Shown piece after piece: positions 51,280 through 58,832 of a stretch of 64,000 nucleotides of DNA (position 1 is the first letter of the stretch; each line of letters opens with the position of its first letter). The position numbers were made by a program, and so were the translations under genes. The notes beneath the pieces are model-generated. The model was not told the DNA's origin, made no database searches, and saw only the letters and a program-made list of their open reading frames with translations. Origin of the DNA: a virus; IMG/VR virus record IMGVR_UViG_3300009181_000063, positions 1 through 64,000 of that record; one strand, given 5' to 3'.

Positions 51280-52316
51280 TACGACTCCTTCTTATCTTGA
51301 ATACCAGCCGACGCCATTAAGTTCATTGCAATAGATACGTCGGTACGAATAGGGGTCATGTCTTGGCTAAAAGAGAGATGAGTTACGTTTAATGAGTTAA
51401 TGTAGCCAATGTAAGACAGCGGTCCTATATCAATTCTTAACAAAGTTGCGCTTAGGTATCCGATGTCGCCAGTTTTACGACCAGTAATGTTTTTCCATCC
51501 CGGACCGTTTACAGCGGTATAGATGTATTCAAGATCAGCAACGGTTCCAAGGTCTAACAACTCTTTTAGTTGTTTTCCTCTTTGTGCTGCTGTTTGGTTA
51601 TTAAAAAACCCAGTGTTATAGTACTTCTGAACCATCTCAACTAAATTTTTATCGTCAGCCACAGGTCCTTCATAATTTCCTAAAGTGTAGCCTTTTTTAA
51701 TTAAGTTTTTTAAACAAGCAAAATCGTTTGTTCGGTCCAAACGTATACTGAAGGAGATAGTCTCTCCGCTGGGAAACGCTCCAGCAACACCCACGAAACG
51801 ATCGTTAACGCTTGGAGTAACGTCCGTATTCAGGGAAATAGAAGTTGTGTAGCTTTCTGGGTTCCACAAAAATTGAAAACCATAGCGTCTATCAGAGCCT
51901 TTTGTTTGAGGCTTTTCTTTTCCGTCTGCATCCACAAAGTTATTAGTTGTATTTGCGTACCACCAAATGCGACCACGTCGATAAGTTTCTGGAACCCCAA
52001 CTAAGTTTGTGTCGGCTTTGTACATGTCTTCTTCAACTTGAATTGGCGTTACAGGCAGGCTCCATGTGTGCGGAGGTAGGTTCCACTTGTAGTCTAAAGT
52101 CGGCTCTGTAGAAGGTTTGTTTTTTTCATACTCAGCTTTTTCTTTAGCTTTTCTGGCTTTTTCCGCAGCAGCGGCCTTCTTTTTTGCAGCTTCTGCTTTC
52201 TTTTTCTGTGTAGCAGCTGCGGCTTTGTCGGCTTTATCTTGAGCTTTTTTAGCCGCCGCAGCCTGAGCAGGGGTTATTGCAAGGAGTGTAGAACCAACAT
52301 ACATATAACCAGCCAT
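51279..52316 (-). CDS. Baseplate/tail protein with Ala-Lys coiled coil
   Basis: The 345-residue product has a 60-residue Ala/Lys/Glu coiled coil after residue 15, then a beta-rich domain (RRGRIWWYANTTNNFVDADG, GFQFLWNPESYTTSISLNTD, GETISFSIRLDRTNDFA). It matches uncharacterised baseplate proteins next to LysM genes in contractile tails. Confidence 0.65.
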   Translation of the reverse strand: MAGYMYVGSTLLAITPAQAAAAKKAQDKADKAAAATQKKKAEAAKKKAAAAEKARKAKEKAEYEKNKPSTEPTLDYKWNLPPHTWSLPVTPIQVEEDMYKADTNLVGVPETYRRGRIWWYANTTNNFVDADGKEKPQTKGSDRRYGFQFLWNPESYTTSISLNTDVTPSVNDRFVGVAGAFPSGETISFSIRLDRTNDFACLKNLIKKGYTLGNYEGPVADDKNLVEMVQKYYNTGFFNNQTAAQRGKQLKELLDLGTVADLEYIYTAVNGPGWKNITGRKTGDIGYLSATLLRIDIGPLSYIGYINSLNVTHLSFSQDMTPIRTDVSIAMNLMASAGIQDKKES

Positions 52317-54619
52317 TATTTTGTCATCGCTTTCTCACGGATTGAACTATCACTTAGAATTCTTCGCAATTCTGATGCAATTAATTTTACATCCGTTGAT
52401 CCTTCTTTTGGCATATGGAAGTTAATAGTTACTCCACCGTAATTTACTGTTTGCGCAGTGTCTTGGTGTGTAGCCCCACGACCAAATCCAGCGGCAGGTG
52501 TGTGACCTTCTCCACCCATAGGCTGAAGAATTAAATCGCCAGCGCCTTTTTTAATAGTAAGGCTTGATTTAGCTGGTGGAACAGAGTTGTTTCCCGCTTC
52601 AGCAGCATTAGATAAATACTGCATTGGGTCTAACTTGTTTCCGCCTTTGCGTACTTCAAAGTGAAGGTGCGGTCCCATACCGGGTCCACCACCAGATTTA
52701 CCACTTTGACCAATAAGTTCACCGGCTTTAACAGCCTTACCCGCAGGAGCAATCTTCTTGTCTAAGTGTCCAAAATAATTTTCAGTTCCATCTGAATTTA
52801 AAGTTTTTATAAAATTTCCAAAACCACCGCCATCATACGGGGTTCCTTCAACCACACCATCAGCAACAGCAAATACGTTTGTACCTTCAGCGGCACGAAG
52901 GTCTACACCGCCGTGCGGCTTACCCCAAGTTGGGCTTTTTGATCCGTCATCAAAAGTAATATGTCGAACTTCATTCCATGGGCTTGTTACGGTCAATACT
53001 CCACTAAGTGGGTTTACTCTAGAAGGGTCTGCTCCATCGGAACCATCTCCTTCTTCTCCATAAGGATTAGCGAGGGATGTGACAGCGCCGGCTCCAGCAC
53101 CAGCAATTGCAGCAAAAGGATTTTTGGTTACAGCAAGAGTAGTTAACGCACCTTCACCAGTATCAAAGGCTACGTTTCCAGCAGTGCGAAGCCAATCAGG
53201 AACGTCCGCTCTATTTAATTGCTTTTGCAACCATTCCATTGACCCGTACACAGCCGCACCAGATAAAGCGCGACCGCCAAACTTCATTGCTTTGCTACCA
53301 GCGCCCTTAAAAAAGTTTCCAGCTTTACCAGCAGCGGCCTTAGCCCCACCACCTTTAAAGAAATTTTTCATTCCGTTAAACGCTTTTCCAGCAAACGCTC
53401 CAGCACCACCAGCAAGAAGGGATGTCAGCATGCTACCGGCTCCGTTACCAGAACTGGCTACGGTGTCTGTATACCCTTTAAGTTCTAATACTTTACGAAG
53501 AGCCTCTCCCACAACACCCGCAGATCTAGCAACTTCCGCAAGTTTGTTACTTGCGGCGGCTAAGTGTTCGTTTGCTTTTTCAAATCCTTTAAGCGTTGAT
53601 GGAGCAACGGCTTGAATAGCATTAAGTGACGCCGCGCTTCTATTGCTTGCTGAGGTAACAGCGCTTGTTGTTGCGCCTTGATCCTCTAGGGTTTTTTTAT
53701 TCATAGGCGATCCTTTACCGCCAGTACCCGCTAAAAGCATAAGTTCAGAAATAACTGTTTGACGAAGAATAGGGTCATTACCAAAATATTGATTCATCAT
53801 AGAATCAAGGGCGTTACCGGGTTGCAAAGAGAACGAGATATCTTCTTTGCTAAGTTTACCTGCGCCAGACTTTTGAGTGTTTAATACTTTCCATAGATCT
53901 TTAGCTATGTCTTGGAATTGACGCATCATGCCATCAGCGCCACGCACATTGACGCCAATCATTTTAAGCATGTTTACATTTTTACCTTGGTTAAGCGCAC
54001 CCATTGCTTGCATACCGCCTTGGAGACCAACACCAGGCATAAGGTTAGAAATTGATGCTGCACTACTTGCAATAGAACTAAAGTTTTTAAGTCCGGGCAT
54101 TAAGCCCATGCTTGCGCCAGTCATAGAGGCGCGAGCGGCATCCATAGGGTCAGTAGTTGTACCCTGACGGGCCATACTTAACTGGGTTGCGTTAGCGTTT
54201 TTTCCGCCGTAGAAACCAAAGCGTGAACGTAGCAAGTCTTGTTCAAACGACTGCTCAACTGTAGGAAGACTTTGTAGACCAATAGCTCCAAGTTTTAAAG
54301 CGTTTCTTCCTAGGAATCCCATAACACGTGAAGCCGTGCTTGGACCACCGCCTCCACCACCCGTGCCATTAGAGGTATCGGTGTCTTTAGTTCCAGTAGA
54401 GTCACTAAAACTTGATCCTAGGAGATTGTTTCCTCCACCAGAACCGGGTCTTGCATTCTTAAGGTTTTTGGAAATTTCCTCAGACAGGCGTTTAGTTTTT
54501 TCAAGTTCAGCATTAAGGGTTTTAAAAGCGGTCGTTAAATCAGCGACTAATTCAGTTTTACGACTGAATATGCCGCCTCCGCCAACACCCATTGCTGAGC
54601 TAGTGTTTTTACCCGCCAT
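52316..54619 (-). CDS. Tape measure protein with M23 peptidase domain
   Basis: The 767-residue product has a helical N-terminal body with Gly/Ala-rich hydrophobic segments (about 380-480). A C-terminal M23 peptidase follows, with HGGVD (His569, Asp573) and HLHFEV (His651, His653). The peptidase would cut host peptidoglycan at DNA injection. The tape measure sets tail length and is translated directly after the frameshift ORF. Confidence 0.87.
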   Translation of the reverse strand: MAGKNTSSAMGVGGGGIFSRKTELVADLTTAFKTLNAELEKTKRLSEEISKNLKNARPGSGGGNNLLGSSFSDSTGTKDTDTSNGTGGGGGGPSTASRVMGFLGRNALKLGAIGLQSLPTVEQSFEQDLLRSRFGFYGGKNANATQLSMARQGTTTDPMDAARASMTGASMGLMPGLKNFSSIASSAASISNLMPGVGLQGGMQAMGALNQGKNVNMLKMIGVNVRGADGMMRQFQDIAKDLWKVLNTQKSGAGKLSKEDISFSLQPGNALDSMMNQYFGNDPILRQTVISELMLLAGTGGKGSPMNKKTLEDQGATTSAVTSASNRSAASLNAIQAVAPSTLKGFEKANEHLAAASNKLAEVARSAGVVGEALRKVLELKGYTDTVASSGNGAGSMLTSLLAGGAGAFAGKAFNGMKNFFKGGGAKAAAGKAGNFFKGAGSKAMKFGGRALSGAAVYGSMEWLQKQLNRADVPDWLRTAGNVAFDTGEGALTTLAVTKNPFAAIAGAGAGAVTSLANPYGEEGDGSDGADPSRVNPLSGVLTVTSPWNEVRHITFDDGSKSPTWGKPHGGVDLRAAEGTNVFAVADGVVEGTPYDGGGFGNFIKTLNSDGTENYFGHLDKKIAPAGKAVKAGELIGQSGKSGGGPGMGPHLHFEVRKGGNKLDPMQYLSNAAEAGNNSVPPAKSSLTIKKGAGDLILQPMGGEGHTPAAGFGRGATHQDTAQTVNYGGVTINFHMPKEGSTDVKLIASELRRILSDSSIREKAMTK

Positions 54620-54621
54620 TG

Positions 54622-54771
54622 TTAACCCCTACGTCTGGATCGGTCAATCCAATTTTTGCGTTCTCTAAAGGACAGTGATCGGATATCCGTCAAAGTCCAT
54701 CCAGTAAAGTGCCGAGTTAGTAGTTCAAATTGGTCCAGTAAATTTACGTAGTCTTCGTCTTTATACTCGAA
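54622..54771 (-). CDS. Frameshift ORF: DUF6760-like segment without its own ATG
   Basis: The frame +1 to the hub-chaperone gene encodes FEYKDEDYVNLLDQFELLTR, then HFTGWTLTDIRSLSFRERKN and WIDRSRRRG. This resembles DUF6760 proteins of contractile systems, which follow the hub chaperone. No ATG, GTG or TTG occurs before the conserved part, and a TAG lies just upstream in this frame. It is probably made by +1 frameshifting at TTT CGA (54771 region), giving a fusion. A CTG start at 54780 is the alternative. Confidence 0.6.
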   Translation of the reverse strand, partial: FEYKDEDYVNLLDQFELLTRHFTGWTLTDIRSLSFRERKNWIDRSRRRG

Positions 54772-55558
54772 ACAATGCAGCTAAGGTCAGTGGCATAGGA
54801 ATATCCTCACCACATGCCTCGCATACCTTCTTCACCTCCCCAAGGCGTGGGCCTGGGTTACGGTCTAGAATTTGCTGTACGAGTACTTCACGATCTTTCC
54901 AACTAAGTCTTAAAACATCAGTAGCGCCAATTGAAGGACTTCCATTGATAGATGCTACGCACCCAGACAATAGAATTGTATTCAATTCTGCTGCACTTTT
55001 TTCGGAATTCTCAAGCAGTCTGCGCTGAACGCTTCCTGTAGGAAGACCAACTTTTACAATTCCCAGCTTTGATTCATAATCCCACATTCGATCTTCCATT
55101 GGATCAGTAAGTTCCTTAATTGGAATATCTTTAGTTAGATCTAAAACCAGAGCTTGCTCAGCGTCACAGGTAGGACATGCCCCGTTGAATTCAATTTCAT
55201 TTCCAAATGTTGCTATGCGCACTCCAATTAGGATTGCATCACGGTCTCCAGATAGAAGGGTGTCTAAATCTTCTTTAGACGCTGAATCCATACCTAGGCT
55301 TACCAAACCACGCTGAAGCATGGTGTTCAACGCACGACCCGTATTACCAGATCGAGCAATTGCTTCTTCATCTGCGCCGTTAAGTTCACGGACTTCCGCG
55401 TACTTAACTAAGGCACCCTCCCGGTTCATAAATCCTCCGGGAAGGGCGACCTCAGTGTCAGAAGGCGCCTTAGTAACAACTGCTACTTTAGGCGTTTCTT
55501 CAAATTGAGCTGCGGCTTTTGCTAGAAGTTGTGGATCTGAGCTTATTGACTCGTTCAC
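54761..55558 (-). CDS. T4-type baseplate hub assembly chaperone
   Basis: The 265-residue product has VALPGGFMNREGALVKYAEV, RELNGADEEAIARSG, LDTLLSGDRDAILIGVRIAT and ACPTCDAEQALVLDL, the T4 gp26/gp51-like (PF12322) hub assembly chaperone pattern. CEACGEDIPMPL ends the gene. It comes just before the tape measure with the DUF6760-like ORF overlapping in another frame, the usual gene order. Confidence 0.75.
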   Translation of the reverse strand: MNESISSDPQLLAKAAAQFEETPKVAVVTKAPSDTEVALPGGFMNREGALVKYAEVRELNGADEEAIARSGNTGRALNTMLQRGLVSLGMDSASKEDLDTLLSGDRDAILIGVRIATFGNEIEFNGACPTCDAEQALVLDLTKDIPIKELTDPMEDRMWDYESKLGIVKVGLPTGSVQRRLLENSEKSAAELNTILLSGCVASINGSPSIGATDVLRLSWKDREVLVQQILDRNPGPRLGEVKKVCEACGEDIPMPLTLAALFRV

Positions 55559-55583: not shown

Positions 55584-56186
55584 TTAAGCGGTGCGAGTGT
55601 AATCAGTACCGGTAAAGAATACTGAAAGTCCTTCATGTACAAGACCAATGGTCTCTACCATGAGGTTATTTCCGCCTGCATCTAGGTCAGAATAGTTCAA
55701 AGTTGAAATCCATGCGTTGTGCACGTGGAATCCCATCTTTGGAACATTTGCCCCACCTTCACCAGTAGTTGTAGCAGTTGCGTTGCTTGCTGCTGGGTGA
55801 TCCATGACGTAGATTTTAAGGTCGCAACGGAAATCATTATCGCCTAAGGCAATACCATCTCCTGCTGCTGCTGCGAATAGGTGTCGCATCCATTTCATAC
55901 CCTGATCGTTTCCAACGATAACTCCACGGTTAAGTGTTATTGGGTTAAATGTTGTCATGCCAGGTACTTGGTGAATTGTGGTGTTGTAACCACCTTCACG
56001 GTACGCGATTGACTGTGTGTTGATTCCAAGACCAGAGACTTGTGTAAACCCGCCCTTAAAACCAGTGATTGTGCTGCTCACCTTGCTTCCTTGCTGAGGC
56101 GCAAGGAATTCAACTGTGTATCGAAACGAACGAAGTGGGTCGGTCGCTACGCTAGAAAAGCGATTGATTACGCTATCGGTTGCCAT
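55584..56186 (-). CDS. Tail tube protein (gp19 type)
   Basis: The 200-residue product has DPLRSFRYTVEF, GGFTQVSGLGINTQSIAYRE, GGYNTTIHQVPGMTTFNPIT and LNRGVI, the gp19-like tube family. It forms the inner tube beneath the sheath. Confidence 0.9.
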   Translation of the reverse strand: MATDSVINRFSSVATDPLRSFRYTVEFLAPQQGSKVSSTITGFKGGFTQVSGLGINTQSIAYREGGYNTTIHQVPGMTTFNPITLNRGVIVGNDQGMKWMRHLFAAAAGDGIALGDNDFRCDLKIYVMDHPAASNATATTTGEGGANVPKMGFHVHNAWISTLNYSDLDAGGNNLMVETIGLVHEGLSVFFTGTDYTRTA

Positions 56187-58357: not shown

Positions 58358-58668
58358 GGGAGTATTCCTTGTGAGAAAAGATAATCAAGCGCTTCTGCGC
58401 CTATAGCGTTTTTAATGGCTGGCTCAGCCTTGACCATAAAAGGGCGAATTACAGAGTTAGGGCTTACACTTTCATGCCCATACTCTGAGTTAAAAATATT
58501 TGTTTCATCAGCTTCAAGGTAGGAAAGCGTTATTGTTCCACGCTTAGCGTCTACAGATACTGTTGCATCCCAACTAGCATTTTTAGCAGCCTGTTGAAGT
58601 TCATCATCAAGATCTCTGGCTATATGGCCAGCAACAATAGGAGCGCGGTCTTGGAAATTACCGGTCAC
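58354..58668 (-). CDS. Small structural (neck) protein candidate
   Basis: The 104-residue product (MTGNFQDRAPIVAGHIARDL...) begins with GTG overlapping the previous TGA. It has TISLSYLEADETNIFNSEYG-like strands and a helical end. The position fits a head-tail joining protein. Confidence 0.5.
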   Translation of the reverse strand: MTGNFQDRAPIVAGHIARDLDDELQQAAKNASWDATVSVDAKRGTITLSYLEADETNIFNSEYGHESVSPNSVIRPFMVKAEPAIKNAIGAEALDYLFSQGILP

Positions 58669-58832
58669 TTCTTCTTCTTCTTTTTCTTTGCCTTTTTAAG
58701 ACCGTACATATACCCAAGTCCTACAGCCGCTAAAGATATTGCTGATTCTTTTGCGCCAGGAGCATTGCCTGTTATGCCACGATAGAAGTCGACCTCAGTA
58801 GGGCCGTCTAACCATGAAGGTTTATCTGACAT
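58665..58832 (-). CDS. Small protein with hydrophobic segment and poly-Lys tail
   Basis: The 55-residue product (MSDKPSWLDGPTEVDFYRGI...) has a short hydrophobic stretch (AISLAAVGLGYMYGL) and ends in KKAKKKKKKK. Interaction with membrane or DNA is possible. Its stop overlaps the next GTG. Confidence 0.55.
   Translation of the reverse strand: MSDKPSWLDGPTEVDFYRGITGNAPGAKESAISLAAVGLGYMYGLKKAKKKKKKK

Follow-up and report, generated by a model that had tools for sequence, protein, structure and literature searches.

Putative +1 frameshifting at a conserved UUU_C site in the tail assembly chaperone of a contractile phage

In the IMG/VR virus record IMGVR_UViG_3300009181_000063, a coding segment lies in the +1 frame at the end of a predicted tail assembly chaperone (TAC) gene and has no recognizable start codon, which raises the question of how this segment is translated. 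The window analyzed here covers positions 1 to 64,000 of that record (64,000 nucleotides, nt), and the genes concerned lie on its minus strand in the order sheath, tube, chaperone and tape measure. An earlier reading of the letters alone (hereafter the sequence-only reading) gave the end of the chaperone frame correctly as TTG TTT CGA GTA TAA and proposed that tRNA-Phe slips by +1 at TTT, from UUU to UUC. These five codons lie at 54775-54773, 54772-54770, 54769-54767, 54766-54764 and 54763-54761, respectively. Our comparison with related loci agrees with the proposed slip and makes it very likely that the locus, like those of a very large set of relatives, encodes a TAC-N/TAC-NC pair, in which the contractile-tail assembly chaperone would be made in a short form (TAC-N) and, via +1 frameshifting at UUU-C, in an extended form (TAC-NC).

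Conservation of the shift site and of the +1 frame

Among viral contigs, 80 close relatives of the locus were retrieved; once further scans, genome contigs and phage records had been included, the junction could be read in 177 loci. These were reduced at 95% identity to 82 non-redundant relatives, which comprise freshwater phages (66), Streptomyces phages, actinobacterial prophages and one metagenome-assembled genome (MAG). In 82/82 of them, the shift codon reads TTT and the next base is C. Elsewhere in the same chaperone genes, Phe is encoded by TTT 243 times and by TTC 136 times, and the other Phe codons that are followed by C comprise 12 TTT and 30 TTC, against 82/82 TTT at the shift site (Fisher p 2e-19, uncorrected for kinship). 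The sharpest test of TTT conservation is given by the loci of high GC content (61-67% GC): in S. diastatochromogenes, Terracoccus and the MAG, the shift codon is the sole TTT of the gene, among 6, 10 and 7 Phe codons, respectively. The codon in the ribosomal E site is mostly TTG (66 relatives), with CTG in 11, CTA in 3, and ATG and TTA in 1 each. The A-site codon is CGT (34), CGC (33), CGA (9), CGG (1), CAG (4) or CCG (1), so that 77/82 relatives carry CGN, the codon preferred in the UUU_C class of the influenza PA-X type.

The sequence-only reading had ascribed the slip in part to CGA being often rare. We rejected such stimulation, since the phage uses CGA at 8.0 per 1000 codons (vs 9.2 for CGC, 2.5 for CGG and 17.3 for CGT), which does not make it rare, and since the majority of relatives have CGT or CGC in its place; of the TTTCGA motif proposed there for a conservation check, TTT-C is kept by every relative and CGA by just 9. 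No phage-encoded tRNA that could affect the shift site was found within the 64,000-nt window. The constant feature is the predicted re-pairing of tRNA-Phe from UUU to UUC, which is strongly supported by the invariant TTT-C together with the lack of conserved start codons and the coding signature of the +1 frame. The same downstream frame as that of a +1 shift would also be reached by a -2 shift, for which there is a precedent in Mu gpGT (PMC3498833), or by transcriptional slippage. We regard both as extremely unlikely: a -2 shift would place tRNA-Phe on UGU, a mismatch, whereas a +1 shift would place it on its cognate UUC, and the run of just three T is too short for the usual transcriptional slippage.

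In this phage, the +1 frame is bounded upstream by TAG (54783-54781) and then stays open until TAA (54624-54622). The tape-measure ATG at 54619 starts 2 nt past this stop, nearly as the sequence-only reading had it when it let the coding segment run to the tape-measure start. Among the 66 freshwater loci, the +1 frame over the extension is stop-free in 66/66, and each of the two remaining frames contains a stop in 65/66. Substitutions at codon positions 1, 2 and 3 of the +1 frame number 4432, 2399 and 7273, a pattern resembled by that of the chaperone (3768, 2099 and 7933). Taken together, these counts show that the +1 frame is not open by chance. An indel in the reads was what the sequence-only reading had feared for its own proposal, and in two relatives (L046 and L073) the chaperone frame is indeed broken early, at other places; the same junction occurs in all 177 loci, isolate genomes included, which refutes both a sequencing indel and gene decay in this contig and leaves that explanation a negligible probability.

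The extension, its expression and the chaperone

The extension has W, R-E-R, W and R positions that are invariant or nearly so. A Pfam/PHROG search gave no significant match to it, and the gathering score of DUF6760 (PF20546), 27 bits, was not reached in the window; the corresponding extension of BRock scored 12.4 bits against PF20546. Alignment by hhalign with a DUF6760 profile, built from ten domains taken from actinobacterial genomes, gave 92.2% with an E-value of 5.8e-7 over 46 columns. When modelled in isolation, the extension forms three helices with a predicted local distance difference test score (pLDDT) of 83. By profile comparison, the extension thus appears to be a remote DUF6760-like relative that stays below the Pfam cut-off, so that the earlier label "DUF6760-like" stands for remote homology and fails for family membership. 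No paper on DUF6760 was found in the literature.

As a separate small gene, the extension would need termination-reinitiation, either from a non-standard codon (CTG, ATT) or with no canonical start at all. From the upstream stop to codon +10, ATG, GTG and TTG are absent in 56/82 relatives and the remaining loci share no common position, which leaves no plausible start for a separate gene; CTG is present in just 24/82. In this phage, none of the three codons lies ahead of the extension core. The sequence-only reading had found none in the entire segment and missed a single in-frame TTG (54693-54691), which cannot be the start because it is part of the conserved core (GWTL). Separate initiation does occur in distant loci. 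Actinobacterial DUF6760 proteins mostly have their own GTG or ATG start, several with a strong Shine-Dalgarno (SD) sequence, and these starts overlap the stop of the upstream open reading frame (ORF), part of these ORFs ending in a zinc ribbon. Likewise, the second ORF starts with ATG in two distant phages, LR756511 (TAATG overlap) and Atu_ph07 (ATGA overlap). The sequence-only reading would have yielded to relatives with a separately started DUF6760 gene, and among the close relatives there were none. Since a separate gene has no start conserved anywhere and leaves the invariance of TTT-C ahead of the chaperone stop unexplained, we consider it very unlikely here. The actinobacterial loci resemble this one in having a small helical W..R domain next to a chaperone-like ORF, in a contractile or tail-like context, and differ in their separately initiated genes; therefore, the same partner is apparently made by initiation there and by a frameshift fusion here.

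The chaperone itself matches PF12322 (T4_baseplate) with 34.9 bits and an E-value of 1.7e-8, above the Pfam gathering cut-off of 24.5, and it matches PHROG 150, baseplate hub. Chaperone and extension were modelled as separate parts. The AlphaFold model of the chaperone has a pLDDT of 87, and Foldseek with this model retrieved predicted gp26-type hub proteins, including those of Bacillus SP-15 and Aeromonas phage 25 (gp26). Neither chaperone nor extension matched a solved structure by sequence, and the fold of the chaperone gave no significant match in the PDB; the HK97 chaperone 2ob9 appeared with an E-value of 2.3 and was not counted as evidence. As in TAC-N/TAC-NC pairs, the gene lies between the tail tube and the tape measure, and it is followed by a conserved out-of-frame C-terminal extension that would be reached via the frameshift site.

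The overlap, the shift site, the selection on the +1 frame and the gene order are shown by the sequence. We infer that the slip occurs at a rate that would let the majority of ribosomes end at TAA and make the 265-aa short form. On the remaining ribosomes, tRNA-Phe in the P site would re-pair from UUU to UUC, one base forward, and enter the +1 frame; the GAA anticodon of this tRNA pairs better with UUC. UUU is also among the most slippery codons ahead of the prfB stop, according to the authors of PRFect (PMC10885494). The fused product would have 311 aa, with about 49 aa after the shift; translation of the +1 frame from TTC gives FEYKDEDYVNLLDQFELLTRHFTGWTLTDIRSLSFRERKNWIDRSRRRG, and the predicted junction peptide in this phage is VCEACGEDIPMPLTLAALFEYK. 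By analogy with lambda gpG/gpGT, whose roles are summarised in PMC5009743, the short form would probably coat the tape measure protein, and the extension on the rare long copies would probably recruit tail tube subunits.

Besides the ATG starts of the second ORF in two distant phages, three points weigh against frameshifting at this locus. No RNA stimulator was found at the shift site, with neither a consensus stem-loop or pseudoknot downstream nor an Rfam match, so that the slip efficiency may be low. The relatives are largely metagenomic, and their counts are not independent events. Finally, the functional assignment draws on position and family.

Layout of the locus and an internal SD-like element

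The features of the locus are collected in Table 1.

Table 1. Positions of the features of the chaperone locus in the window (strand -, minus)
Feature	Position	Strand	Basis
Tail tube gene, T4 gp19-like	55584..56186	-	Upstream neighbour; PF06841, E 1.3e-23
TAC-N, chaperone short form, T4 gp26/PF12322 family	54761..55558	-	265 aa, GTG start
Possible hairpin CCCAGGC-CCAC-GCCT-TGGG	54839..54857	-	Overlaps SD-like element; RNA folding and pair counts
Internal SD-like element GGGGAGGTGA	54832..54841	-	Near-invariant in freshwater clade; synonymous constraint
Shift site TTG_TTT_CGA	54767..54775	-	Putative P-site re-pairing, UUU to UUC, in +1; TTT then C in 82/82
TAC-C, +1-frame C-terminal extension, DUF6760-like	54622..54774	-	Conserved W/RER/W; stop-free frame; third-position substitutions
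Tape-measure-position gene, M23 peptidase domain	52316..54619	-	PF01551, E 1.6e-22; gene order

Within the chaperone gene, roughly at -70 to -61 relative to the shift codon, GGGGAGGTGA is found exactly in 64/66 freshwater loci (64/82 overall), and GGAGGTGA occurs just once in the window, within this element. Over the region of GGGGAGGTGA (codons 235-243), synonymous constraint is above that of any tube, sheath or tape-measure stretch measured likewise; both GGG and GTG belong to the less used codons of these chaperone genes. The possible hairpin at this position has one freely varying pair, which is broken in about 1/5 of the loci, so that the covariation support is not clean. No conserved ORF was found downstream from GGGGAGGTGA in the freshwater clade. 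The element is absent from the Streptomyces group and is therefore dispensable for the shift as such, and to our knowledge it lies too far upstream for known SD effects on frameshifting.

In the protein at the tape-measure position, the M23 peptidase domain (PF01551) is C-terminal. Farther upstream on the minus strand, at 58665-58700, a small ORF with a terminal run of lysine codons (KKAKKKKKKK) stands directly ahead of the next gene.

Comparison with known systems

Frameshifts in phage tail genes are usually backward, and programmed +1 frameshifting in tail chaperones is far less documented than -1. We found no literature on a UUU_CG frameshift in phage tail genes. The present locus resembles lambda gpG/gpGT in its overlapping ORFs ahead of the tape measure and in the rare long form with a C-terminal extension that frameshifting would produce; it differs in that the shift is -1 there (-2 in Mu) and would be +1 at UUU_C here, and in that the chaperone here belongs to the T4 gp26/PF12322 family. 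T4-like gp26 chaperones are of the same family by hidden Markov model and predicted fold. In T4-like phages, Vladimirov et al. (2022, cited in PMC12846349) reportedly argued for a mechanism other than frameshifting, whereas a frameshift is the best reading here; the locus also bears on how the gp26-type chaperones of contractile phages produce two forms. On the roles of the short and long forms, a recent paper reasons in the same way about a -1 site of Vandenendeviridae (PMC12846349).

A +1 extension overlaps a gp26-type chaperone at TTT-C in SP-15 (TTT TTT CAC), Streptococcus GXN1 (TTC TTT CGT), Flavobacterium immuto (AGC TTT CTT) and a 484-kb phage (AAC TTT CTA), and at TTT-TTT in LIS04 (TTT TTT AGT) and Microcystis Mel-JY01 (TTT TTT TGG). 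Most of the very distant gp26-type chaperones examined show such a +1 overlap at UUU, and these sites are candidates only, because the +1 frame reaches further upstream there. In Atu_ph07 (L205, near 2284), the second ORF is in the -1 frame, and a T_TTT_TTC heptamer and the ATGA overlap are both present. The haloarchaeal phage HSTV-2 also has a contractile tail; its chaperone record is a join, with TCC TTT CGC, the core of the influenza PA-X site, within the overlap (L086, 15457-15530), and a review called its shift very likely +1. Its extension has no visible similarity to the one described here. We give even odds to a wider reading, in which UUU_C, mostly in the form UUU_CGN, would be an ancient +1 signal shared across the gp26-type chaperone family, in phages of Actinobacteria, Firmicutes, Bacteroidetes and others. 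In this reading, the signal would be convergent with PA-X and, in the freshwater clade, may act together with the upstream SD-like element.

The long chaperone form is unannotated in the public records examined: those of LuckySocke, BRock and GiJojo give the extension as a hypothetical gene of its own, in shortened form, and that of pSt2308 omits it. If frameshifting is confirmed, these four annotations and those of SP-15 and immuto, in which the extension is missing or separate and shortened, need correcting, and the UUU_C class gains a large natural bacterial set with many E- and A-site variants. This class, with CGN in the A site, was predicted in a 2012 study that listed candidates in eukaryotic viruses (PMC3498833). 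One member is influenza A PA-X, for which +1 frameshifting at UCC_UUU_CGU was proven by peptide sequencing and a slip from UUU to UUC was argued (PMC3498833), and which has no evident stimulatory signal (PMC5009743). The two sites are alike in the P-site slip at UUU_C, the CGN codon in the A site and the lack of an evident 3′ structure; they differ in the unrelated virus and host ribosome and in the E-site codon, which is UCC in PA-X and mostly UUG here. The likeness is convergent, not homologous.
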